Notes under the pieces: generated by a model
Seen by the model: the letters and a program-made list of their open reading frames with translations, nothing else
Told to the model about the DNA's origin: nothing
The model's database searches: none
Part shown: positions 10,954 through 56,139 of the stretch, in pieces
How positions within the stretch are numbered: position 1 is the first letter of the stretch
How the letters are laid out: the number at the start of each line of letters is the position of its first letter
Assembly (NCBI GenBank): GCA_021772095.1
Contig: JADYXR010000006.1
Location: 87,114 to 151,113, forward strand
Length of the DNA: 64,000 nucleotides
Source of the DNA: Candidatus Obscuribacter sp.
Lineage (GTDB): Bacteria > Cyanobacteriota > Vampirovibrionia > Obscuribacterales > Obscuribacteraceae
Direction: 5' to 3'
Program-made: the position numbers and the translations under genes

Positions 10954-11874
10954 TCAGTCGTCTTTAAGACTAAATGACTCTTTGCCGAAAGGCTCTTCGC
11001 CACTGCCTTTCCAACTGTTCATCACAGTGTATTCGATGCCCTCGAATAAACCACCGATGAAACCAAATGGAAAGCTAACAATCGTAGCCGGAAGTAATTT
11101 AATCGGATTGGTCGATTCGCCAATGAAATCTCGATTGCCTGCTTTGGTTTGGTGAACAGTACGTTTCGCCATCGCTACCGGATATCCGAAAATGGCTCCA
11201 GCTGTAAACGACGCCAACCGCGTCGGCAGCGGAACTGTCGACTTCGCTTTTTTCTCGCCATCAATAGTGGTGGCAGGTTCAGTCGCATTTTTCACATCAT
11301 CAGATTTTTTATCGCCGTCTTTATCTTTAGACTTGTCGGCTTTTTTTGAATCTTTACTATCGTCGGAACCCTTGTCCGTAGCGGCTTTATCGCCAGCAGC
11401 TTTGTCGCTGGCAGTTTTGTCAGCCGCAGTTTTGTCTTTCGCTGCTTGCTTGGCTGCAGCTTTATCAGCAGCCGCTTTTTCCTTGGCTGCTTTAGCGTCG
11501 GCCGCTGCCTTTTGCTTCTCAGCCTTTTTCGCGTCGGCATCCGCTTTCAAATTTTTGGTGGCATCGGCGCCTTTAGCGGCGTCGGAAGTTTTCCCGGCGC
11601 CATCCTGGCTGGTCTCAGTTGCAGCGGCTGAACTAGAATTCTCTTTTTTCTTTTTGGCAGCTTTCTTGGCCTTTTCGTCGGCTTTCTTTGCGGCAGCATC
11701 ATCGACAGCTGGTTTCGTTTCTGCAGGTTTTTCCTCAGACTTTTGCTCAACAGCAGGTGGTTCGTCCTCGGGAGGCGAAGTCAGGAGACCGCCAGCCAGA
11801 GCCTGCGGGCTCAATGCAATGGAACAAACCAGCGCCAGAGTTAGAGATGTCAGCGTCAAAATTCGTTTTTTCAT
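10954..11874 (-). CDS. secreted Lys/Ala-rich low-complexity protein
   Basis: A 306-residue exported protein. The signal peptide (MKKRILTLTSLTLALVCSIA..., cleavage probably after ALA) is followed by about 170 residues dominated by Lys, Ala and Asp in runs of a five-residue KAAAD-like pattern, probably helical and extended. A C-terminal domain of about 90 residues carries two hydrophobic segments (LPTRLASFTAGAIFGYPVAM and LLPATIVSFPFGFIGGLFEG) and could insert into or lie on a membrane. The layout recalls TolA- or TonB-like spacers, but no signature of those was seen. ATG at 11874 is preferred to the GTG two codons upstream. The opposite strand is open over most of the gene because of the biased codons. 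Convergent with the NDH-2 fusion. Confidence 0.7.
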   Translation of the reverse strand: MKKRILTLTSLTLALVCSIALSPQALAGGLLTSPPEDEPPAVEQKSEEKPAETKPAVDDAAAKKADEKAKKAAKKKKENSSSAAATETSQDGAGKTSDAAKGADATKNLKADADAKKAEKQKAAADAKAAKEKAAADKAAAKQAAKDKTAADKTASDKAAGDKAATDKGSDDSKDSKKADKSKDKDGDKKSDDVKNATEPATTIDGEKKAKSTVPLPTRLASFTAGAIFGYPVAMAKRTVHQTKAGNRDFIGESTNPIKLLPATIVSFPFGFIGGLFEGIEYTVMNSWKGSGEEPFGKESFSLKDD

Positions 11875-12029
11875 AATCACATTATAAGTAGGTCTGAGCC
11901 GCGATGCACGCCGTTTCAGGCTTCACGAGCAATTATTACATGCTGACAACTGAATATTTTTGGACTAATTTTCGCCGAATTGCCGTAGAATCAGCGTGAG
12001 TTAGCGATTACTTTTGGTAATTAATATAA

Positions 12030-12455
12030 ATGAACGATCAATTCCCAGACAGAAAGAGATACGAAGTCTCCGGTAAGACGCAGACTCTCGGCATGGACTA
12101 CAGCTTGGCTGCATGTCTTTGCTATCTTCCAATTCCAATTTTGCCGTTGGCAGCAAGTATCCTCTGGCTAATCACAGAACCGAAAGCGAGCCTGTTCGTC
12201 CGCTTCCACGCCATCCAATCGTTGATGGTGCTAGCCGGTTTCGCCGCCTCACTGATGGTGGTGCAAATTATCAATTTCTTGAATTTCATTCCAGTGATAG
12301 GCGGAATGTTCACCCTCATTAGTGGCGTTGTCTGGTTCGCATTTTGCGGCGTGTGGTTCGTCTTGACCATCATGCTCGCCCTCAAATCTAAAAACGGCGA
12401 GATGTACAAGCTGCCTTACATCGGCGATATAGCTGAGAATCTGGCTACTAAATAG
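12030..12455 (+). CDS. DUF4870/Tic20-like small membrane protein
   Basis: A 141-residue integral membrane protein of the DUF4870 type. It has a short polar N-terminus and three to four hydrophobic segments, with the family-like hallmark FVRFHAIQSL between the first and second, and NFIPVIGGMFTLISGVVW in the third. Function of the family is not established; it shares a fold family with the chloroplast Tic20 subunit, which says nothing firm about role here. The start ATG at 12030 lacks a clear ribosome-binding site but is the first ATG after an AT-rich leader. It is divergent from the Lys/Ala-rich gene. Confidence 0.75.
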   Translation: MNDQFPDRKRYEVSGKTQTLGMDYSLAACLCYLPIPILPLAASILWLITEPKASLFVRFHAIQSLMVLAGFAASLMVVQIINFLNFIPVIGGMFTLISGVVWFAFCGVWFVLTIMLALKSKNGEMYKLPYIGDIAENLATK

Positions 12456-44771: not shown

Positions 44772-45698
44772 ATGCAGAGCGAATTAGAAAAATGGCTGAC
44801 CTATCAGAAGGAAAGATTTCCTCTGATTCGTTACTCAGTCTTGGTTTCGGCTTTCGCCGCCTCGGGACTGGCGCTCAGCTTCTTACTTACAGGCGGGCAA
44901 CACCCACTCAGAATCGAGATGTTCCTCGTCGCATTTTCGGTAACGCTGCTTCTATTTTTTCAGCTACGAGTCGCCGATGAGCACAAAGACTTCGAGTACG
45001 ATGCGCTGCATCACCCCGACCGACCAGTCCCCAGAGGACTGGTCACGCTCAAGGAATTGCGCACCTTAGCTCTTACGTCCGCCCTTTTTCAGCTCACCGC
45101 AGTCCTGTTGCTACACGCGACACTAGTCCTTCCACTTGCACTTGCCTGGGTCTACATGGCGCTCATGACTCGCGAGTTCTTCATCGGTGATTGGCTGCGC
45201 GATCATCCGGTGATCTACATGCTCACGCACATGTGCATTTTGTTTTTCACGGATCTGTTCATAACGTCATGCCATTTTATGGTCTCAAACATTGAACCAC
45301 CAGTCGCGTTGCTCTATTTCCTCGGCACTAGTTTTTGCCTTGGAATGGTTATCGAGCTTGGTCGAAAGATTCGCAGTCCTCAGGACGAAACAACAGGAAC
45401 CGATACGTACAGCCGACTATGGGGACGTGAAACTGCTGTTCGCGTCTGGCTCTCAGCCATAGCGTTGTCAGGATTTTTCGCCATCGCGACAGCAATGCAA
45501 ATTCAATCCGGACTGATTGCACTTGCAGTGCTTTCAATTTTACTATTCACCTGCTGGAGCTACGGCAAGAAATTTCTCGCCGCCAGTACACCATTAACCG
45601 CCAAACGTTTAGATTCGCTTTCCGGAATTTGGACATTGGCAACATATTTGATAATCGGTCTGATACCACTTCTGGTATCACACATCGGTCGGGGCTAG
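44772..45698 (+). CDS. UbiA-family prenyltransferase-like membrane protein
   Basis: A 308-residue integral membrane protein with about eight membrane segments. The first Asp-rich motif, LRVADEHKDFEYDALHHPDR, resembles the NDxxDxxxD diphosphate/Mg site of UbiA prenyltransferases. The second, ELGRKIRSPQDETTGTDTYSR, sits where the DxxxD site is found. UbiA enzymes attach prenyl groups to aromatic or other acceptors in the membrane. The acceptor is unknown; it starts the lipid-type gene group that continues with the fusion at 45814. ATG at 44772 lies after AAGGACAAAAC. The 115-base gap to the next gene contains a palindrome. Confidence 0.8.
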   Translation: MQSELEKWLTYQKERFPLIRYSVLVSAFAASGLALSFLLTGGQHPLRIEMFLVAFSVTLLLFFQLRVADEHKDFEYDALHHPDRPVPRGLVTLKELRTLALTSALFQLTAVLLLHATLVLPLALAWVYMALMTREFFIGDWLRDHPVIYMLTHMCILFFTDLFITSCHFMVSNIEPPVALLYFLGTSFCLGMVIELGRKIRSPQDETTGTDTYSRLWGRETAVRVWLSAIALSGFFAIATAMQIQSGLIALAVLSILLFTCWSYGKKFLAASTPLTAKRLDSLSGIWTLATYLIIGLIPLLVSHIGRG

Positions 45699-45733
45699 CA
45701 AATTTGATTAACACAACCAGCGCGACCAGGCGA

Positions 45734-45743
45734 TGTTCGCGAA
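45734..45743 (+). promoter_or_regulatory. palindrome GTTCGCGAAC upstream of the fusion gene
   Basis: A perfect 10-bp palindrome 71 bases before the ATG at 45814. It could be an operator half-site. No -35/-10 is evident. Weak call. Confidence 0.25.
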
Positions 45744-45813
45744 CTTGAATGCCTCAACGTTAATTGCACCTGATTAATAAATCCTCCCAGTCCACGCAAT
45801 CCAAAAGGACAAA

Positions 45814-48800
45814 ATGATGAATACTTTGGCAGCGACTAAGAATTTGTGCGAAACCGGTGAAACTTCACCGGATCGTCGGAAAGTCGGTGGAAAGGGCTTC
45901 AACCTCATTCGGCTTAAGAGGGAACAACTCGAAGTCCCGGCGTTTCTTGTTTTGACTTCTGAAACATTCTTCCAAAGCTTGGGGGCTGAGACAAGGGCCA
46001 GGTGGTCCAGCATGACAGCAATAGAACGTCATGAGGCCGTTCAAAACCTGCGTCTCAACCCGGCGGCTTTAACAGCGTCGGCGGACAATCTGGACGACCT
46101 GTTTGATTCGAGCGATAAAATTGCCGTACGATCATCGGCTGCGGACGAAGATGGTTCAACGATGTCGTATGCGGGCCAATTTGCTTCCGTTTTGAACGTT
46201 GGCAGAACGGAGCTTGCTGCAGCCATCGAAACAGTGTGGCGCTCAGGCTTTTCGAAACAGTTGATCGCTTATCGCACGCTCAACGGTTTAAATACCGCAC
46301 CAGAAGCACCATGCGTGATATTGCAGCAAATGGTTACGCCGAAAACGGCTGGTGTCGCATTCGGTGCTGATCCATTAACAGGCGACCGCGACGTAATAAT
46401 TGTCTCAGCCGTCGAAGGACTGGCTGACAAGCTGGTTTCCGGCGAGGTCGACTCCGCCACCTACCGAGTTAGAGGCACATCGATTGAACTCAGAACCAAC
46501 GAATCTCTTGGTTTTCTAACTGACCAACAAATTTCGCAAATAAAATCGCTGGTTGAACAGACTAATCAAATCTTCGGTTCCCCTCAAGACATCGAGTGGG
46601 CAATCGACGATAACGACAAGCTTTTCATCCTGCAATCCCGACCAATCACCACGCTAGGCGCGTGTAGTCCGGATTCGGTTCCGCCAATTGCGGTTCGTCT
46701 AAACCCAGTGCCTTCAAATGCGGTGCCGACTTCGATGGTGATCTTCGACAACAGTAACATCGGCGAAAGTTATCCTGGTATGACCACTCCGCTTACTTAC
46801 TCTTTCGCTCGAAAAGCCTATCAGCATGTGTACGAAGAGTTCTGCCGCTTGATGGGTGTGAGCGAAAAGTCGATTAAAAAACACGCTCACATTTTTCCAG
46901 ACATGCTCGGTTTCGTACGCGGACGCATCTACTACAACTTGCTGAACTGGTACCGACTGCTCTCATTGTTTCCGGGCTTCAAAACAAATCGTGGATTCAT
47001 GGAGCAAATGATGGGCGTCAAGGCAGGCTTGCCAGCTGACTTTCTGGCTGAGTTCGACAAGCCGTTGCCAGCTGCAGAGAAATTAGCGGATGCACTTTCG
47101 TTGATGATGGTAATTCCGAAGCTGCTCTCAAAATGGTTTTTCTTGCCTCAGGATATCAAAGCTTTTAATCGACGCGTTGAAAATTCATTCACTCGCGTGC
47201 CAGCTAATCTAGGCGAGCTGTCCGAATCGGAGCTGGCGAGCCTCTACCGTAGCTTGGAAAAGGATCTTCTTCTTCATTGGGACGCGCCGATCGTAAATGA
47301 CTTTTTTGCGATGGTTTCGTTCGGTTTGCTGCGAGGCGTTTGCGCCAAGTGGTTTAAAAACATGGACGGAATTCACAATCAACTGCTTTGCGGCGAAACT
47401 GGAATCATAAGCACAGAGCCAGTTGCACGGATGAAGGAACTAGCCGCCGAAGTTTCCATCAATTCTCGATTGATCGAGCTATTAAAATCCGGCGATGTAA
47501 AACGGATAAACAGTAACCTCTCGGAATTTCCAAAATTCCATAGCCTCTACCAATCTTACCTCGACAAATTCGGCGATCGATGCGCAGGGGAATTGAAACT
47601 GGAAAGTCCTACAGTAGTGGACAATCCGCAAGCGTTGATATCCGGCGTCTTGCGCTTAGCGACACAAACGCCTGGTGAAAATGAAAAGAATTCCGTCCAG
47701 GCACAAAAGAACAGATCTGAAGCTGAAGAGCTTGCGTTCGAATCGCTCGGCAATAATCTAGTCAAAGCATTCGTGTTCAATATGATTTTGAATCAGACCA
47801 GAACTCGCATCAGAGAACGCGAGAACCTGCGTTTCATGCGTACTCGCGTGTTCGGCCTGGTTCGCAAAATCTTCATCGAAGTCGGCAAACGTTTCGAATC
47901 CGCCGGCGAGCTAAACAATCCTCAAGAGATTTTCTATCTGGAAACAGAAGAAGTTCTTGCGCATATAGAAAGACGCAATCCGAAAACTTCAGCGGTTTCG
48001 AAAACGTCAGCTGATTTGGAAACTTCAGTAGTTTCGGCAACTTCAGTCGGGTCGGAAACTCCGGTTATTTCTGAAACTGCAGTTGCTTCGGAAATTTCGG
48101 ATGTTTCAAGCTCTTTCAGCCTGAAGGCGATAGTTGAAGCGAGAAAGAATGAACTTGAGATCTTCAAAAACATGCCGGCGCCGCCCGATCGGTTTGCGGT
48201 TCTCAAAGGCGCAGATTTGAACGAAGCCGCACTGGAAGCGCAAAGTGAGGAACTTAACCAAAGCTTTACGAGCGGTAAAGCACGTCAAACAGTATATAAA
48301 GGTTTAGGTTGCTGCCCTGGTATCGTCCGTGGTTATGCTCGAGTCATCGATGACCCTGACACCCAACAATTGAAACCGGGCGAAATTCTAGTAGCCAAAC
48401 GTACCGACCCGGGCTGGATCACCGTCATCGCCCAGGCTACCGGCATCGTGGTCGAGTACGGCAGCTTGCTTTCTCATACCGCGATCGTTTCCAGGGAACT
48501 TGGCATACCCACCATCGTCTCCGTAAGCAATGTCACAACCAGTGTAAAAACTGGTGAATGGCTCGAGATCAACGGTGCAACCGGTGAAGTAAGAGTGGCG
48601 CCTTCGCAAGGAGTCGTCGCTCTTGCTGCGAATACAGAAGAGAACGAGGTGTTGGCTATGAAAAGCGAAATTCAATCCAAAGCCGGTTTCTCGTTTGTCC
48701 GATATGCACAGTGTTGGGAAGACGCCGATATCGTTGTCGAAGCAATGAAAATCAAGGCGGACGACAAATGTCTATCAATCGCTTCAGCCGGCGATAATAG

Positions 48801-49830
48801 TTTGGCAATTCTCGCGAAGAATCCAGGCAAAGTGGTGGCACTCGACTTGAATCCAGCTCAGCTCGCGTTGCTTGAACTTAAGGCCGCGGCATTTAAACAC
48901 CTGGATTACCAGGACATGCTGGTTTTGCTCGGTTACAGAACTGGTAAAAACAGAGTCGAGCTGTTCGAAAGTATCGAAGCAGAGTTAACTGCCGGCACGC
49001 GTGATTACTGGCGCAAGAACATCAGTGATATCGAATCTGGTGTTGCAAGTTGTGGCAAGTTCGAAAAATACTTCGCGCTGTTTCGCAAATTCGTGCTTCC
49101 ACTCGTTCACTCGCAACAAACTGTTGATGAGCTTCTTCAATGGAAGTCGAAAGAGCAGCGCGCTAAGTTTTACACGACCACCTGGAACACTCCAAAGTGG
49201 AGAGCGCTTTTCAAAATATTCTTTTCGCAATTCGTCATGGGAATTCTGGGACGCGATCCGAGTTTCTTCAAGTACGCTGAAGGCGGGCTGGCTGAAATTC
49301 TACTCAAGTGGACCAGAAAGGCACTGGTAGATCAAAACCCTTCGAACAATCCTTATCTGCACTGGATTCTCAACGGAGAATTCGGTTCCACTCTTCCTAA
49401 TTTTCTTAGAAGAGAAAACTTTGATGCGATTAAAGCGAACATCAACAAACTCGAATGGCATCAATTGTCGCTCGAAGAATATCTGTCGGCGCATCCGGAT
49501 GAACAGTTTAATTCGTTCAATCTTAGCGACGTCTTCGAATACGTGTCCGAAGCCAATTACAAGACAATGTTGAAACTGATTGCCGGTGCATCTCAGCCGA
49601 ACGCTCAAGTGGTTTACTGGAATATGATGGCACCGAGAACTGCAAAGGTTGCAGGAGTCGAGCAAATGAAATCGTTGACCGCACTATCCCAAGCATTATT
49701 CGCGGAGAACAAAACTTTCTTCTACAGCCGCTTCGTGGTCGAGCAGGTAAGAATCGACAACTCTTGCCAGAGCACCACTGGTGATGTCAGAGAGAAAACA
49801 ACCGCCGATAATAAAGACAGGGCAGCATGA
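45814..49830 (+). CDS. PEP-synthase/dikinase-like protein fused to BtaA-like (DUF3419) domain
   Basis: A 1338-residue fusion. Residues about 1-290 are a PEP-synthase-type ATP-grasp domain (KVGGKGFNLI at 24-33, VRSSAADEDGST near 104, QDIEWAIDDNDKLFILQSRP ending near 278). A long middle part (300-830) has no clear motif apart from a Ser/Thr/Val/Glu low-complexity stretch at about 722-768. The swivelling phosphohistidine domain follows at 835-920, with the active His888 in YGSLLSHTAIVSRELGIPT. The PEP/pyruvate-binding barrel of true PEP synthase is missing, as in rifampin phosphotransferase. Residues about 955-1320 match DUF3419/BtaA (YAQCWEDADIV, CLSIASAGDNSLAIL, VALDLNPAQLALLELK), the SAM-dependent 3-amino-3-carboxypropyl transferase used for betaine-lipid synthesis. 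RBS AAAAGGAC. The next gene overlaps by four bases. Confidence 0.88.
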   Translation: MMNTLAATKNLCETGETSPDRRKVGGKGFNLIRLKREQLEVPAFLVLTSETFFQSLGAETRARWSSMTAIERHEAVQNLRLNPAALTASADNLDDLFDSSDKIAVRSSAADEDGSTMSYAGQFASVLNVGRTELAAAIETVWRSGFSKQLIAYRTLNGLNTAPEAPCVILQQMVTPKTAGVAFGADPLTGDRDVIIVSAVEGLADKLVSGEVDSATYRVRGTSIELRTNESLGFLTDQQISQIKSLVEQTNQIFGSPQDIEWAIDDNDKLFILQSRPITTLGACSPDSVPPIAVRLNPVPSNAVPTSMVIFDNSNIGESYPGMTTPLTYSFARKAYQHVYEEFCRLMGVSEKSIKKHAHIFPDMLGFVRGRIYYNLLNWYRLLSLFPGFKTNRGFMEQMMGVKAGLPADFLAEFDKPLPAAEKLADALSLMMVIPKLLSKWFFLPQDIKAFNRRVENSFTRVPANLGELSESELASLYRSLEKDLLLHWDAPIVNDFFAMVSFGLLRGVCAKWFKNMDGIHNQLLCGETGIISTEPVARMKELAAEVSINSRLIELLKSGDVKRINSNLSEFPKFHSLYQSYLDKFGDRCAGELKLESPTVVDNPQALISGVLRLATQTPGENEKNSVQAQKNRSEAEELAFESLGNNLVKAFVFNMILNQTRTRIRERENLRFMRTRVFGLVRKIFIEVGKRFESAGELNNPQEIFYLETEEVLAHIERRNPKTSAVSKTSADLETSVVSATSVGSETPVISETAVASEISDVSSSFSLKAIVEARKNELEIFKNMPAPPDRFAVLKGADLNEAALEAQSEELNQSFTSGKARQTVYKGLGCCPGIVRGYARVIDDPDTQQLKPGEILVAKRTDPGWITVIAQATGIVVEYGSLLSHTAIVSRELGIPTIVSVSNVTTSVKTGEWLEINGATGEVRVAPSQGVVALAANTEENEVLAMKSEIQSKAGFSFVRYAQCWEDADIVVEAMKIKADDKCLSIASAGDNSLAILAKNPGKVVALDLNPAQLALLELKAAAFKHLDYQDMLVLLGYRTGKNRVELFESIEAELTAGTRDYWRKNISDIESGVASCGKFEKYFALFRKFVLPLVHSQQTVDELLQWKSKEQRAKFYTTTWNTPKWRALFKIFFSQFVMGILGRDPSFFKYAEGGLAEILLKWTRKALVDQNPSNNPYLHWILNGEFGSTLPNFLRRENFDAIKANINKLEWHQLSLEEYLSAHPDEQFNSFNLSDVFEYVSEANYKTMLKLIAGASQPNAQVVYWNMMAPRTAKVAGVEQMKSLTALSQALFAENKTFFYSRFVVEQVRIDNSCQSTTGDVREKTTADNKDRAA

Positions 49831-51146
49831 GTCCCTGGATCGGAATCGCAGCCGTCATGGTCACTCTTGTTGGAGTTATCCATATACTGAGCCGCCTGCA
49901 GAAATCCGTTTCCGATCCTGAAATTATACGCAAACTATTGCACGTGGTGATGGGTCTAGTCACTCTGTCGTTCCCCTGGATATTTGATGATGCCTGGCCG
50001 GTCTTAACGCTAAGCATAATCTCCAGTCTTTTTATAGCGGTGCTCAAGGTTTCGAACCTCAAAGACTGGGCGCCGGTTATTTGCGCTCGCGGACGTGAGA
50101 GTATCGGCGAAATTGTTTTTCCATTAGCAGTCGGTCTGACGTTCTTGTTAGCCAACGGAAATGCAATGTTGTACATCATTCCAATCACGATCCTGACTTT
50201 TGCAGACACCGCTTCTGCCCTTGTGGGTCAGCGTTTCGGCAAGAAAATGTATGGCTGTACTGAAGGCGACAAGTCGTTTGAAGGCAGTTTGGCATTTGCG
50301 TTGGTCGCGTTCGCCGCCACATTTTTTCCCTTGCTGCACTTTTCGAGTTTAGGCTTTAATACATCACTCACTATTGCTCTGATACTAGGAATAGTGGCGA
50401 TGATGTTCGAGGCAATTGCCTGGAAGGGGCTCGATAATTTATTCATTCCGGTGGGCGCATTCATTGTCCTCAAGACACACATGCTGCTCGGGCTAGAAGA
50501 GCTAATCGTTCGACTGGTAGGGCTTCTTCTGATGTCGACGTTCGTGTTTGCGATTCGACGTAACAGCACTTTGAACGGCGGCGCGATAATCGCGTGCGCA
50601 TTGTTCTGTTATTTTGCTTACACCGTGGGTGGTATCGAATGGGTAGTCATGCCGATTCTACTTTTATTGAGTTATCGGTTTCTTCTGCCGGAAAGATTCC
50701 GTGAGATCAAGAGCGCACACAGCGTCTACGCAGTGATCTCCGTTGCGTCTGTCGGGATCTTCTGGCTGCTGATCGCGATGGTCAGCAACAGCGAGAAGTT
50801 TATTTTTCCATACATGCTCACATTCGGCGCGCATGCTGCAATTATTGCTACGGCACATTTACGCTATACGAGCTTCTCGAAACATCGCGTGTTCACGCTG
50901 CTTTACGCGGTGCTCAAAGCATGGTGTTTGATGGCGATACCAATGATCTTTATCAATCCTTCGGCACAAACAATAGTTCTTTCAGTTTTCCTCGCACCTT
51001 TCTGCATCGGTATTCCGACCGTTTTGTTTTACGCTGCTAACTCGACAGAGTTGAAACCATTCACCAGACCAGCACGTTGGTGGAAACAAGCGTCATTTGC
51101 AGCGCTCGCGTCGCTGCTTGGTTTGATTCCTTTATTGGTTCACTAA
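49827..51146 (+). CDS. phytol/dolichol-kinase-like membrane protein
   Basis: A 439-residue membrane protein with about 12 segments. Residues about 25-220 match the CTP-dependent polyprenol kinase/phosphatidate cytidylyltransferase-like group: DPEIIRKLLHVVMGL, ARGRESIGEIVFPLAVGL, FADTASALVGQRFGKKMYG and GDKSFEGSLAFALVAF. These enzymes phosphorylate dolichol, phytol or diacylglycerol with CTP. The C-terminal half is hydrophobic and not recognised. The ATG at 49827 overlaps the stop of the preceding fusion gene (ATGA), which implies translational coupling. It is likely in one pathway with the fusion. Confidence 0.8.
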   Translation: MSPWIGIAAVMVTLVGVIHILSRLQKSVSDPEIIRKLLHVVMGLVTLSFPWIFDDAWPVLTLSIISSLFIAVLKVSNLKDWAPVICARGRESIGEIVFPLAVGLTFLLANGNAMLYIIPITILTFADTASALVGQRFGKKMYGCTEGDKSFEGSLAFALVAFAATFFPLLHFSSLGFNTSLTIALILGIVAMMFEAIAWKGLDNLFIPVGAFIVLKTHMLLGLEELIVRLVGLLLMSTFVFAIRRNSTLNGGAIIACALFCYFAYTVGGIEWVVMPILLLLSYRFLLPERFREIKSAHSVYAVISVASVGIFWLLIAMVSNSEKFIFPYMLTFGAHAAIIATAHLRYTSFSKHRVFTLLYAVLKAWCLMAIPMIFINPSAQTIVLSVFLAPFCIGIPTVLFYAANSTELKPFTRPARWWKQASFAALASLLGLIPLLVH

Positions 51147-51403
51147 AGACCGACTGAACTAACCGAGAACGAAAGCGCCAGGTCGCCAGTGTATGTTCAG
51201 ATTAATCATGAATCTTCCTGAGCGACCATTCGGGGAAGCAGCGATACGCTGAGCCTCCAATTTCAAGCATGTTATCGCCCATTCTTAGTTAGAAAGAGAA
51301 ATCACATTTCAACGGTTGCTGAACTGTTGGGTCCAAGGCACACCGAGCTGATACAGACGTCACAATACAGATAGCCGAATGAAATGGCTATCGCGGAGAT
51401 ATT

Positions 51404-52492
51404 GTGATGAACCAAAGTCAGATCGAATTGAAAAATTCAAACGCTAAGTTTCAAGAAATAAACAATACGCTCAGTGCGGCTGGGTTCTCCAAGACTTCGG
51501 AAATCCAGAGGTCAAGCCGGGTTTCAGCGTATCAAGAGTTCTTGAAGAAACATCTTTCTCACGTCAATATGCGACTGGATTCACCAGATGAATCGTGGGT
51601 TCAATTTGACAATTCAGAAGTCGTAATCGGACATTTTTCTATTTGGTATTGCGACACGCCTTTGGTGAACAGCAAAACGACCGGCTTCATCGGTCATTAC
51701 TACGCAAAAAACACAACAGTCGGCAAGCAATTATTGAATTTGGCAAGCAAACTGCTGAAACAATTTGGATGCCAAATTGCCGTGGGTCCAGTCGATGGAA
51801 ACACATGGAGAAATTATCGTCTCGTGAGCGGGACCACGGACGTACCTCGTTTTATTCTGGAACCGCAAAATCCATTGGACTATCCGGCTCATTTTATCGA
51901 CGCGAGTTTTGATGTTCTGGCGACTTATAGTTCATCGATTCTGGATGCGAAACCTGACTTTATAGAATTGGAAACGATCACTTCTTCAAACGAAGTGGCT
52001 GTGCCTTTGGACGAAGTCGGTGATGTGGTGATTCGCCCAATCGATTTGGAAAACTTCGAACGAGAATTGCTAGATATCTATGGCATCGCATGTGATGCAT
52101 TCGCAGATAACTTTCTTTATTCAGAGATTTCGGAATTCGAATTTCTCGCTCGCTACAAACCGCTTCTGCCACTGGTGGTGCCCGATTTGATGTTGATAGC
52201 TGAGTACGAGCAACATCCTGTTGGTTTCGTTCTGGCAGTGCCCGATCCTGCCAATAGCAATTGCACACTTAAAACTGCAGTTGTGAAAACTATCGGCAGA
52301 ATACAAGACGACCGATTCCGAGGGCTTGGGCGCAGACTGATGGCTGAAGTTCATCAGCGAGCGGAAAAGTTAGGATTCACCAGTTTGATTCACGCGCTTT
52401 ATAAAGACGACAACACATCCAGCATCTATAGCACCATCCATGGTGCCCAGGTATTCAGACAATATGCTGTCTACGGGAAACACCTCGATTGA
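51404..52492 (+). CDS. GNAT-family N-acyltransferase
   Basis: A 362-residue acyltransferase with a GNAT domain in its second half. The acyl-CoA binding motif RFRGLGRRLMAEV is near residue 307; a strand IADYEQHPVGFVLAVPD precedes it. The first half contains a GPVDGNTWRNYRLVSG segment near residue 128 and EPQNPLDYPAHF near 159, seen in GNAT-related proteins of two-domain type. It may N-acylate an amino-group carried by a lipid or peptide; the substrate is unknown. ATG at 51404 is an internal choice between two adjacent ATGs, with no strong ribosome-binding site. It lies in the lipid gene group, 257 bases after the kinase-like gene. Confidence 0.8.
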   Translation: MMNQSQIELKNSNAKFQEINNTLSAAGFSKTSEIQRSSRVSAYQEFLKKHLSHVNMRLDSPDESWVQFDNSEVVIGHFSIWYCDTPLVNSKTTGFIGHYYAKNTTVGKQLLNLASKLLKQFGCQIAVGPVDGNTWRNYRLVSGTTDVPRFILEPQNPLDYPAHFIDASFDVLATYSSSILDAKPDFIELETITSSNEVAVPLDEVGDVVIRPIDLENFERELLDIYGIACDAFADNFLYSEISEFEFLARYKPLLPLVVPDLMLIAEYEQHPVGFVLAVPDPANSNCTLKTAVVKTIGRIQDDRFRGLGRRLMAEVHQRAEKLGFTSLIHALYKDDNTSSIYSTIHGAQVFRQYAVYGKHLD

Positions 52493-52589
52493 ACAGTGAA
52501 GCCTGAAACTAACCGAGATAAGATTTGAAGAAAAAGAAAACAAACAGAACACAGTACAGCACACAAATTTTTGAAACAAATACAAAACA

Positions 52590-54299
52590 ATGAAAACTAA
52601 TTACAGACTCCTCACACAATCGCCTGAGCTTCAACTAAGCCGAACCAGCAGTGCAACGGTCTCACGACCTGTTGAACAAGGCGGCGATTTTGTAGCGGAT
52701 CGCGCTTTAGAACGCTGTTCGACTGAAGCAAACATTGCAACCAAACTCGATGAGATTGCAGCAAGTTTTCCAAACTTCACCGCGTTAATCCAGGGATCGG
52801 GACTCACAAGCTCGTCAATCAATTTCGAAACTTTATCGAGATTAGTTGGAAACAAAGCGGCGATTTTGAAATCCGCAGGTCTTAGAAAGGGCGATCTAGT
52901 TTTGATGCTTCAGCCGATGAGCATTGATTTGTACGCATCCATACTTGCTGTTTTCCGGCTCGGTGCGACAGTGCTGATAGTTGACGCAGCAGCCGGCAAG
53001 GACAAAGTAAACCACGCTATCGCATCCACCGCACCACATGCGGTGATCGCGGCTGGCAAAGGAATTATTGCTTCTCTAGCTTTGAAGTCTGTTAGACACA
53101 TCAAGCTGAAATTCTCAGATGGATTGACCTTGCCAGGTTGGACTTCACTTGCTCCGAACAATCAGATCATTGCTCCAGTCGAGCCCGTCTCCGCCAACCA
53201 CCCAGCACTAGTGACGCTGACTAGCGGCACGAGCGGCGAGCCGAAGATGATTGTTCGAAGCCACGAGTTTTTGCAAACGCAACTTCAAGCGGTTTCATCG
53301 AACTGCGACGTCAATGAATTTTCCAGTGAACTGACTTCATTGCCGGTGTTCGTTTTGGCAAACCTGGCATCATGCGTCAAAACCGTTTTACCCGACGCAA
53401 ACTTGGCAGATCTAAAGCACATGAATGTGGATCGCATAATCAACCAGTTGAATCGCTTTCAGCCTGAGAGAGTTCTTGGTTCACCCGCTTTCATTGAGCG
53501 GATTGTATCCGAGTGCGCGCATCAGGGGATTACTCTGCCGTTCGTCAAGAAGATTATTACAGGCGGCGGACCCGTGTTTCCGCAGCTTCTGGAAAGCGCA
53601 AAGGCTGTGTTTGTAAACGCTAACCTGACCACCGTATATGGTAGCAGTGAGGCGGAACCGGTTTCGAAAATTAGTTTCGCTGACCTCAGCCATGCAGATT
53701 TGAATGCCATCGCCAATGGTGCCGGTCTTCCTGTTGGTTCTCCCGTCAGTCAAATTCGAATTCGCATAGAACCACTGGTTGCGCAGCAGAATCAGATGAA
53801 CAGCGCCGAGCGTTTGTCAGCTCTTCGCCATATTTGCGAACTTAAAAATTTGCACCTCGACGCAGTCGGAGAAATTTTGGTGACTGGCGATCACGTGGTC
53901 AAAGGATACGATCGCGGCATCGGAGATGAAGAAACCAAAGTTCGAATCGATGGCGAAATCTGGCATCGCACGGGCGATGTCGGATACTTAGACAATTCAG
54001 GCAAACTGTGGCTGACCGGGAGAATAACGAACGCGGCTCTCGACACTAGTTTCGCGCTCAGCGTTGAAGCGGCGGCACTATTCGATATACATGTTGAACG
54101 AGCAGCTTGCCTGACCCTGAACAACGTCACGACTCTGTTCATCGAGTCCACTGGAGCGATGCACGAGATCGACAGATGGACGCTGAAAAACAGGCTGAAC
54201 TGGAGCAATTTGTCCGCGGTCAAGGTCGTCCGAAAAATTCCAGTTGACTCGCGTCACAGCAGCAAAGTGTTGTATCACAAGCTGGCGAACTCCGCCTAA
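52590..54299 (+). CDS. AMP-forming acyl/aryl ligase (ANL family)
   Basis: A 569-residue adenylate-forming enzyme. Phosphate-loop ALVTLTSGTSGEPKMIV lies near residue 207, motif A5 VYGSSEAEPVSK near 351, and TGDVGYLDNSGKLWLTGR near 455. The C-terminal catalytic Lys sits in IPVDSRHSSKVLYHKL. The SRH-SKV ending resembles OleC-type and some fatty-acyl ligases. The enzyme probably activates a carboxylic acid as acyl-AMP, for transfer to CoA, a carrier, or an alcohol. The start ATG at 52590 has no good ribosome-binding site and an A-rich leader; 97 bases separate it from the GNAT gene. Confidence 0.85.
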   Translation: MKTNYRLLTQSPELQLSRTSSATVSRPVEQGGDFVADRALERCSTEANIATKLDEIAASFPNFTALIQGSGLTSSSINFETLSRLVGNKAAILKSAGLRKGDLVLMLQPMSIDLYASILAVFRLGATVLIVDAAAGKDKVNHAIASTAPHAVIAAGKGIIASLALKSVRHIKLKFSDGLTLPGWTSLAPNNQIIAPVEPVSANHPALVTLTSGTSGEPKMIVRSHEFLQTQLQAVSSNCDVNEFSSELTSLPVFVLANLASCVKTVLPDANLADLKHMNVDRIINQLNRFQPERVLGSPAFIERIVSECAHQGITLPFVKKIITGGGPVFPQLLESAKAVFVNANLTTVYGSSEAEPVSKISFADLSHADLNAIANGAGLPVGSPVSQIRIRIEPLVAQQNQMNSAERLSALRHICELKNLHLDAVGEILVTGDHVVKGYDRGIGDEETKVRIDGEIWHRTGDVGYLDNSGKLWLTGRITNAALDTSFALSVEAAALFDIHVERAACLTLNNVTTLFIESTGAMHEIDRWTLKNRLNWSNLSAVKVVRKIPVDSRHSSKVLYHKLANSA

Positions 54300-54446: not shown

Positions 54447-55031
54447 TTAGATCGTATCCGGGGCGGGTCTGCCCTCGTAAGGAGCGACCAGATTGTTGCT
54501 CTCGCTGGCTTCGAAGGCCTCAAGCTGCGAAACTGGAATGCTCATGTTAGCGAGTTTCGTCGAATGTCCGAGTGTGACCATCCGATCGAGCACCGCGAAG
54601 ATATCTTCTATGTAGCGAGCCAGTGCACGTCCTTGAGGAAGCACTTCTTCAACACCAACGCCGAGGAAATAATCGGCTGTGACACCACCAACGATTTCTG
54701 ATTTGCCTTCGCCATGCGTCTTGTTCCAGGCGCATTGGAAACGAAGCATCAGTGGCGCCCCAGGCTGTGAAATCAAAATAAGTTTTCGAACAAATCCTTG
54801 ACTGTTCAGGTCCAGTTCGCCCATCAATTTGTCGAATGAATCGGGTCCGTTAGGCAGTTGCCCCTGCATCTTTCCGCCAGCAGTGCCGAGTTCTTGATTC
54901 AGCAATTCAACGAGGGCGGCAAATGACGCCACGCCTTGAAGATTGATTGTCTTACCTGTAAACGGCTGATTGGAGCCACTTGCAGAACCAGCAGGTCCCA
55001 TGGAACTCATTGCTTCGAACCCTCTTGACAT
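54447..55031 (-). CDS. hypothetical protein, unknown
   Basis: A 194-residue soluble-looking protein without a signal peptide or membrane segment. It has a Gly/Ser-rich N-terminus, then a region with ASFAALVELLNQELGTAGG and a mixed alpha/beta C-terminal part (ALARYIEDIFAVLDRMVTLG). I do not recognise a family. ATG at 55031; a downstream ATG at 55010 is also possible. It is convergent with the ligase gene and divergent from the second UbiA gene. The frame is supported by length and composition only. Confidence 0.55.
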   Translation of the reverse strand: MSRGFEAMSSMGPAGSASGSNQPFTGKTINLQGVASFAALVELLNQELGTAGGKMQGQLPNGPDSFDKLMGELDLNSQGFVRKLILISQPGAPLMLRFQCAWNKTHGEGKSEIVGGVTADYFLGVGVEEVLPQGRALARYIEDIFAVLDRMVTLGHSTKLANMSIPVSQLEAFEASESNNLVAPYEGRPAPDTI

Positions 55032-55233: not shown

Positions 55234-56139
55234 ATGCCTACAGCAATAGAACCAGGACACAGCCAGCCACTCCCGAGCAAAATGCGCGAGTGGTCCGAGA
55301 TGATAAAGATCGAACACACAGTGTTCGCGCTGCCCTTTGCTCTTTCCGGATTGATTTTGGCGCTGCCGAAACTACCCGATGCGATGACGGTTCTGTACAC
55401 GACTCTGGCTTTTGCAGGGGCGCGAGCAGCGGCGATGACCCTAAATCGTTTGATCGATAGTGAGATTGATGCACGCAATCCTCGAACAAACGATCGAGCG
55501 ATTCCGCAGGGCCGCATCAAAAAAGGTCATGCACTTTTCGGTGCAATCGCCTCATTTGCGATCATGCTGGCAGCCGCGTCACAACTACCTTCGCTCTGTT
55601 TGCAGTTGTCACCTATTGCAATTGGTTGGCTCAGTTTTTATTCATTTACTAAACGATTTACCTGGTTGTGCCACATCGTTCTAGGCATCGCCCTTGGTGG
55701 CGCCGCACTCGGTGGCTGGGTTGCAGCCGGCGGTGAACTGACGATGGCGGCGCCATGGGTTCTCGCCCTGGCCGTGACTACATGGGTCGCTGGATTCGAC
55801 ATCATCTACGCCTGTCAGGATGTCTCTTTCGACCAGAACGAAAAGTTGCATAGTATTCCAGCTCGATTCGGAGTCGGCACCGCGTTACTGATTTCACGAG
55901 CACTACATGTGGTGACCGTAGGTTCACTGTTCGCGTTGTCGCAGTTGCTGCATCTTGGAATTGCCTATTGGGTTGGATTGTTCCTAGTCACCGGTATGTT
56001 GATGTACGAACACAGCATCGTGAAGAAGGATGACCTTTCCCGCGTCAACGCGGCGTTCTTCACGGTTAACGGTGTCGTCAGTATTCTTGTTTTTCTCACA
56101 ATTCTGATAGACAAAGTGATTGCCGTTTCTAACAACTAG
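55234..56139 (+). CDS. UbiA-family polyprenyltransferase (quinone biosynthesis type)
   Basis: A 301-residue membrane prenyltransferase with eight or nine membrane segments. First Asp-rich motif NRLIDSEIDARNPRTNDRAI at about 84-103 and second motif YACQDVSFDQNEKLHSIPA at about 192-210 are complete, as in UbiA and MqnP. It attaches a polyprenyl chain to an aromatic quinone precursor. The KIEHTVFALPFALSG start is typical of the MqnP/UbiA group of menaquinone/ubiquinone enzymes. It is divergent from the unknown gene at 55031 and separated from the lipid group by that gene, so it may be independent of it. Confidence 0.9.
   Translation: MPTAIEPGHSQPLPSKMREWSEMIKIEHTVFALPFALSGLILALPKLPDAMTVLYTTLAFAGARAAAMTLNRLIDSEIDARNPRTNDRAIPQGRIKKGHALFGAIASFAIMLAAASQLPSLCLQLSPIAIGWLSFYSFTKRFTWLCHIVLGIALGGAALGGWVAAGGELTMAAPWVLALAVTTWVAGFDIIYACQDVSFDQNEKLHSIPARFGVGTALLISRALHVVTVGSLFALSQLLHLGIAYWVGLFLVTGMLMYEHSIVKKDDLSRVNAAFFTVNGVVSILVFLTILIDKVIAVSNN

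Follow-up and report, generated by a model that had tools for sequence, protein, structure and literature searches.

A 64,000-nucleotide stretch of a Candidatus Obscuribacter sp. genome (GenBank assembly GCA_021772095.1, contig JADYXR010000006.1, positions 87,114 to 151,113; hereafter, the window) carries five consecutive plus-strand genes at positions 44772-54299. They code for a UbiA-like prenyltransferase, a large fusion of a phosphohistidine kinase-like half (the dikinase) with a DUF3419 half, a polyprenol-kinase-like membrane protein, a GNAT-type acyltransferase and an AMP-forming ligase (Table 1). This layout, first described in an initial annotation made from the DNA letters, was borne out by the open reading frames (ORFs) and by Pfam, as was the 4-base overlap between the start of the kinase-like gene and the fusion gene (gene starts are first-start guesses). 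All five proteins match profiles built from their homologues across most of their own length (rows from other phyla, with the window's own row included), and because of these near full-length fits none of the genes looks decayed. Since both halves of the fusion occur in 23 of 120 listed relatives (the window's own protein among them), and the same gene order is found in distant phyla, the grouping is not due to chance, and the five genes form a single conserved biosynthetic cluster.

Table 1. Features of the gene cluster, in window positions.
Feature	Position	Strand	Basis
UbiA-like prenyltransferase, 308 aa	44772..45698	+	ORF; Pfam UbiA 39.6 bits (cut-off 34.2); motif counts in 62 cluster UbiAs
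Fusion protein, 1338 aa: phosphohistidine kinase-like half and DUF3419 half	45814..49830	+	ORF; Pfam; alignment of relatives
ATP-binding PPDK_N domain, best stretch, fusion residues 23-223	45880..46482	+	Pfam 163.4 bits
Swivelling PEP-utilizers domain, fusion residues 854-924	48373..48585	+	Pfam 81.3 bits
His888 codon of the swivelling domain	48475-48477	+	Invariant in 22 aligned fusion proteins
DUF3419 domain, cluster subfamily, fusion residues 961-1308	48694..49737	+	Pfam 225.8 bits (cut-off 28.2); cluster profile 517 bits
Polyprenol/phytol-kinase-like membrane protein, 439 aa	49827..51146	+	ORF; naming of relatives; fold comparison
Tandem-GNAT N-acyltransferase-like protein, 362 aa	51404..52492	+	ORF; Pfam GNAT 38.2 bits
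AMP-forming ligase, ANL superfamily, 569 aa	52590..54299	+	Pfam AMP-binding 129 bits; nearest NCBIfam families

At least 578 places were confirmed by scanning one genome per species with the fusion alignment, and the best 80 were kept. These loci were selected by their dikinase and DUF3419 parts, irrespective of the other genes, and were searched with gene profiles together with the window (matches above 80 bits, on the plus strand and within 12 kb). Gene order was counted over the 57 loci in which the dikinase is flanked by at least 3 kb on the upstream side and 8.5 kb on the downstream side; the 24 of 81 that failed this flank rule were left out, some of them complete (e.g. L037, L048 and L055). 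Genes for UbiA are present in 55 of the 57, DUF3419 in 54, GNAT in 52, the ligase in 49, the kinase in 47 and a homologue of 3-hydroxy-3-methylglutaryl-CoA (HMG-CoA) reductase (HMGR), the usual seventh gene, which the initial annotation did not name, in 37. All seven are present in 31 loci, in the order HMGR, UbiA, dikinase, DUF3419, kinase, GNAT, ligase, and these loci are spread over nine phyla: Verrucomicrobiota (8), Pseudomonadota (8), Bacteroidota (5), Planctomycetota (3), Acidobacteriota (3), and one each in Thermodesulfobacteriota, Bacillota, Deinococcota and Chloroflexota (assigned from record titles and, for some, tree-tool labels). Conservation of order in distant genomes had been set beforehand as the test of the grouping, and these 31 of 57 loci pass it; a seven-gene order kept across such distant phyla likely reflects selection for one product. 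The remaining 26 loci comprise four with the GNAT-ligase pair in front, six without HMGR only (the window included), seven without HMGR and kinase, two with the dikinase alone and seven with other patterns. Cyanobacteriota, Rhodothermota, Gemmatimonadota and Krumholzibacteriota show other or truncated arrangements, which brings the number of phyla to thirteen. Two metagenome-assembled genome (MAG) records titled Akkermansia muciniphila (L043 and L078) carry the cluster, although these titles may be wrong.

Some variants are informative about the parts of the cluster. Two verrucomicrobial loci, L064 (12721-18004) and L071 (8759-14028), have no HMGR or kinase gene and carry extra proteins between the dikinase and DUF3419, which in L064, the locus scanned, match a class-III aminotransferase, a second PPDK and SnoaL. 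HMGR and kinase are also missing from five cyanobacterial loci (L005, 6028-8856; L014; L022; L025; L035), where a radical SAM/SPASM protein and two other genes lie upstream of UbiA; families were scanned in L005, and the two proteins beside its radical SAM gene gave no Pfam or NCBIfam match. Because these variants swap HMGR and kinase, a constant core of UbiA, dikinase, DUF3419, GNAT and ligase is suggested, with an exchangeable supply of one building block. Exporter-type genes of the MMPL family were found in 5 of the 81 loci and P450 genes in 8 (by clustering, with one member of each scanned). In L040, L056 and L069, an MMPL-family gene lies between the dikinase and DUF3419 (scanned in L040).

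The claim that the genes act as one group is upheld not only by the order kept across phyla but also by co-occurrence in genome samples that were not chosen for the cluster. GNAT matches were counted at 120 bits or more with a profile of 19 rows (the window and other loci among them); this threshold was chosen with the scores already in view (the highest values beneath it being 104.7 and 113), so that genomes below it were dropped and 13 of 26 were kept in Verrucomicrobiota and 16 of 40 in Cyanobacteriota. Among 291 cyanobacterial genomes (the window's own included), DUF3419 was matched in 24, 23 of them over the cut-off, and all 16 genomes with a counted GNAT fall within these 24. Fourteen of the 16 have DUF3419 at 195 bits or more, and two (G084 and G105) at 100-112 bits; conversely, 3 of the 17 genomes with DUF3419 at 195 bits or more (G102, G120 and G270) have no counted GNAT, G102 showing an 84.8-bit match on the same contig as its DUF3419. 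Another cluster gene is present in 11 of 13 cyanobacterial stretches with DUF3419 at that level, the others being L167 and L172 (the latter with no more than a weak ligase match). In 240 Verrucomicrobiota genomes, canonical DUF3419 (340-386 bits) was found in nine and the cluster type (170-243 bits) in 14, with both types present in two genomes; four genomes had fragments only. GNAT was counted in 13 of the 240, all among the 14 cluster-type genomes (G718 being the one without), and in none of the seven with canonical BtaA only. The GNAT-DUF3419 pair lies on one contig in 10 of these 13, spanning 3.1-3.6 kb end to end. Hypergeometric probabilities are 9e-21 (Cyanobacteriota) and 1e-20 (Verrucomicrobiota), rough values that are uncorrected for kinship and depend on the post-hoc 120-bit line.

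Among 299 Pseudomonadota genomes, 25 had DUF3419 over the cut-off, of which 23 were canonical by score, one was the centre genome and one was a fragment. With carriers scattered in this way through all three samples, the cluster is patchy. Closer to the window, 11 of 40 genomes (its own included) match both cluster-type halves (G000, G001, G002, G003, G009, G011, G012, G013, G018, G019 and G029), and G014, G015 and G016 have weak DUF3419 matches only. Stops were seen within some matched stretches (G012, G013 and G029), but these need not mean broken genes, as the DUF3419 frame of G029 is open (368 aa). Some genomes have split copies only (for example, G087 and G282), and in G830, G851 and G677 the parts are on different contigs, as might be expected if the genes were chance neighbours serving unrelated pathways. 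Against the conserved order in distant genomes, the co-occurrence and the repeated fusion, that explanation is scarcely credible.

The cluster also appears to be mobile. In a DUF3419 tree of 86 rows (with one canonical BtaA row only, because of a motif filter, and a bootstrap that had not settled), the phyla are mixed, and the fusion label, carried by three rows, changes twice: in Obscuribacterales with the window, and in a Coxiellaceae MAG. A plasmid search with GNAT alone gave five records, the best of which belongs to a full cluster that Roseinatronobacter sp. S2 (source field: cell culture) carries on its plasmid unnamed3. Its annotation reads UbiA, PEP/pyruvate-binding, DUF3419, hypothetical, hypothetical, AMP-binding, and an HMGR frame (550 bits) spans the record start, so all seven genes are on the plasmid. 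In three of the other four records the annotated genes form no cluster of this kind, and the fourth is unannotated at that place. On plasmids of Streptomyces and Rubrobacter (L215, 8439-11721; L217, 6494-9861), remote relatives of the GNAT were seen between genes for a pyridoxal phosphate (PLP) enzyme and an epimerase/oxidoreductase (one profile-matched).

Patchy spread, with the cluster-type DUF3419 in so few Verrucomicrobiota and a single pseudomonadotal genome, mixed phyla and a plasmid copy would also suit an exported small-molecule secondary metabolite (a signal, metallophore or inhibitor) that has a common core with interchangeable tailoring modules and is not a membrane lipid. The MMPL and P450 genes point the same way, as does the replacement of HMGR and kinase by aminotransferase, PPDK-like and SnoaL-like proteins or by radical SAM and two others. 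This is a serious alternative, if a rather doubtful one, as the two membrane enzymes (UbiA-like and kinase-like) suggest a lipophilic product and the MMPL gene is grouped with the cluster in few loci.

The DUF3419 half can be compared with a known enzyme, BtaA, which performs aminocarboxypropyl transfer, as described in passages of PMC10491745. A profile built from 64 cluster proteins scored 285-612 bits on 15 cluster-type rows that had been left out, and 108-150 bits on 23 canonical BtaA proteins; L172 scored 217 bits, and five other cyanobacterial rows 73-149 bits. Both types have a common core (Y-x-x-x-W-E-D and S-x-G-x-N), but the canonical S-G-G-C-N reads S-A-G-D-N in the cluster type, the C-terminal motifs are also altered, and many residues invariant in the 23 canonical proteins are replaced, including C to D at 994, W to Y at 1243 and R to W at 1269. 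An intermediate position is taken by five divergent rows from cyanobacteria, which retain C994 and W1243. Judged by these scores and motifs, the cluster DUF3419 is a subfamily of its own, distinct from canonical BtaA, and diacylglycerol, the acceptor given for BtaA in the initial annotation, is therefore not implied. The approximately 1.5-kb flanks of the 23 canonical BtaA loci contain none of the other cluster genes, and in the one canonical locus tested a methyltransferase gene adjoins DUF3419, as expected for BtaB. A search of the DUF3419 half against solved structures (E ≤ 1) returned one methyltransferase only (E 0.46). In cyanobacteria, a third DUF3419 type was noticed in L177 (9143-10979) and L178, which in L177 follows a haem-oxygenase-like iron redox enzyme, and in L174 an AurF-type N-oxygenase gene (10980-12137) adjoins a divergent cluster-type DUF3419.

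The homology across the whole DUF3419 domain and the presence of a GNAT protein might instead indicate a membrane lipid resembling a betaine lipid, with homoserine added to diacylglycerol as in diacylglyceryltrimethylhomoserine (DGTS) synthesis and N-acylation replacing N-methylation. The absence of a BtaB methyltransferase, noted at the outset, agrees with this, and was confirmed to the extent that no methyltransferase domain was detected by Pfam among the eight scanned window proteins, to which the search for BtaB was confined. Such a product is nevertheless improbable, since the subfamily stands apart, canonical invariants such as W1243 and R1269 are changed, and UbiA, HMGR, the kinase and the phosphohistidine half would be left without a role. 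As the branch is separate from betaine-lipid synthesis, genomes scored as 'BtaA positive' may lack betaine lipids.

A search with fusion residues 700-1320 gave 349 relatives, and both halves are present in 23 of the 120 listed (the window's own included). In an alignment of 22 fusion proteins (without P0001, the window's own, and P0012), G25, K27, R106, E261, Q274 and R276 of the ATP-binding part and the swivel His888 are invariant, as is the DUF3419 motif Y964..W968-E969-D970. The initial description of a dikinase/BtaA-like fusion was right in that both halves are present, although the first half is not of the phosphoenolpyruvate (PEP) synthase type: only PPDK_N and PEP-utilizers precede DUF3419, with no C-terminal PEP-binding domain (Pfam), and PEP synthase was rejected. 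PPDK_N, a middle domain and a C-terminal swivelling His domain instead give the layout of rifampin phosphotransferase (RPH) and of the prodigiosin ligase PigC/RedH, and the alignment shows the middle domain to be a conserved one of the fusion's own. Among curated families, PRK06241 'PEP synthase', PigC, RedH and Rph come closest, although each match stays under the family's cut-off (e.g. Rph 245.5 of 999 bits, PigC 310 of 1300 bits). In the PDB, the nearest structures are 5hv2 and 5fbs (deposited as phosphoenolpyruvate synthase), both of which we take to be rifampin phosphotransferase.

UbiA prenyltransferases typically carry two Asp-rich motifs. The first (DEHKDFEYD in the window) is kept in 62 of 62 cluster UbiAs, and the second is replaced by E-x-x-R-K (ELGRK in the window; E in 61 of 62, R and K in all 62). 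The kinase-like protein of the window had no Pfam match and no match among curated families. DUF92 is matched weakly by 4 of 22 kinase-like members (best E 0.0056), and was rejected as its family when 0 of 21 relatives matched, so that no bridging alignment was possible; homologues are named phytol kinase by the Joint Genome Institute (JGI). In a fold comparison, CdsA chains rank top over residues 16-221, with no Foldseek match at E ≤ 0.001, and the kinase profile matched no solved structure at E ≤ 1. In tocopherol synthesis, VTE5 and VTE6 convert a prenol to its prenyl diphosphate, and one could imagine a salvage route in which the kinase and phosphohistidine half do the same and UbiA uses the product. 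The JGI naming and the weak DUF92 matches fit this, but DUF3419, GNAT and the ligase would be left over, UbiA lacks its second Asp motif, and phytol would not be expected in non-photosynthetic carriers, making salvage very unlikely. The GNAT protein has two GNAT folds within one chain, and its profile gave 17 weak rows against solved structures (E ≤ 1; best E 0.015). Nearest to the ligase among NCBIfam families are PRK09274 and the olefin beta-lactone synthetases.

The HMGR homologue was found next to the cluster in 46 loci by clustering and in 50 of 81 by profile, the one member scanned with Pfam matching HMG-CoA_red at 389.5 bits; it was not found in the window's genome (92% complete). What we take to be the catalytic residues are kept (Glu in all 44 proteins that have a residue at its position; Lys, Asp and His in 46 of 46), and the homologue scores 300 bits against the archaeal enzyme 6hr7. 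The 6hr7 loop Ser, which presumably contacts HMG, aligns with Glu in 46 of 46, the motif DAMGMNM reads DA(A/S)GQNM, and the L016 protein scores 344 bits against a TIGR00533 cut-off of 441.8. HMG-CoA synthase was over the cut-off in none of 40 carrier genomes (36 with HMGR in the cluster; many of the 40 are drafts; one match at 24.3 of 25 bits), and the same profile matched 7 of 14 control genomes. The mevalonate route was rejected because no synthase exceeded the cut-off and the pocket is altered by the Ser to Glu change. HmgR beside a complete methylerythritol phosphate (MEP) pathway is described in several Streptomyces in passages of a 2026 paper (PMC13001223), which leaves open what HMGR does in bacteria that use the MEP route.

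We infer the product and substrates from the protein families. The ligase would activate a carboxylic acid as an AMP ester or CoA thioester, and the HMGR-like enzyme, where present, would form an alcohol by reducing some CoA thioester that is not HMG-CoA. The polyprenol-kinase-like protein could phosphorylate a lipid alcohol, and the UbiA-like protein attach a prenyl chain to the core. In the first half of the fusion, ATP and the phosphohistidine may serve to activate a hydroxyl group or to power a ligation, as in rifampin phosphotransferase and PigC, with the fusion handing the activated intermediate straight to the S-adenosylmethionine-dependent step; the tandem GNAT would then acylate the new amino group. 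With close to even chances, on our estimate, the product is a lipid that is prenylated and bears an N-acylated 3-amino-3-carboxypropyl (homoserine-type) group. The broader proposal is held somewhat more tentatively: a horizontally moving pathway in at least 13 phyla may make a new class of prenylated N-acyl-aminocarboxypropyl lipids, with HMGR recruited for a different CoA thioester and an RPH-type enzyme, twice fused, feeding a new BtaA branch. It offers a function for HMGR genes in MEP-route bacteria in which the usual partner enzyme was not found and, if true, would explain many 'orphan' HMGR genes in bacteria without a mevalonate pathway. Carriers are recorded as strains, Sphingobacterium alkalisoli Y3L14 and Methylomonas sp. 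SURF-1 among them, which makes the cluster testable.

Downstream of the cluster, and outside it, the window has a second UbiA-type gene (55234-56139, plus strand) that matches the UbiA-like polyprenyltransferase family TIGR01475 at 292 bits (cut-off 180.8), is below the cut-off of the menaquinone MqnP models, and keeps the ordinary Asp motifs. Between the two lies a gene for a 194-aa protein (54447-55031, minus strand) with no Pfam match; an ORF resembling it in size and strand also follows the group in L002.

No description of this gene cluster was found among the papers listed by searches of open-access PubMed Central (preprints were outside the search), and related systems differ from it. 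The Lipocone gene set is different, with HMGR and a GHMP kinase beside Skillet-2 and UbiA beside YfiM-1 in passages of PMC12419801, and the Ubi-297 paper (PMC9235831) concerns the ebo cluster. The DGTS pathway (BtaA/BtaB) is alike in the DUF3419 domain and shared core motifs, but differs in the DUF3419 subfamily and by having BtaB, no such protein being in the group. RPH and PigC/RedH have the same three domains and conserved His, while the cluster half scores far lower against them, has its own middle domain and is fused or adjacent to DUF3419. Class I HMGR is alike in catalytic residues and in the score to 6hr7, and differs from the cluster homologue in the TIGR00533 score, the Ser to Glu change and the missing synthase partner. 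OleC resembles the ligase as an ANL member (167 and 147 bits), but its cut-offs of 850 and 900 are not reached, and no OleA/B/D-like family was seen among the eight scanned window proteins. The neighbourhood of the remote plasmid GNAT relatives recalls the Spt-bCerS-CerR genes of bacterial ceramide synthesis, as given in parts of PMC11087976 and PMC11324152, whereas the eight window proteins include no PLP synthase or CerR-like gene product (Pfam). Like the present group, the ebo cluster (EboA-F) is a mobile, UbiA-containing cluster, and its product is unknown according to PMC5133447 and PMC9235831. EboC is its UbiA-like member, with a cut-off of 250, and the window UbiA reaches only 20.9 bits against it. 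The partner families of the ebo genes, we assume, also differ from those described here.

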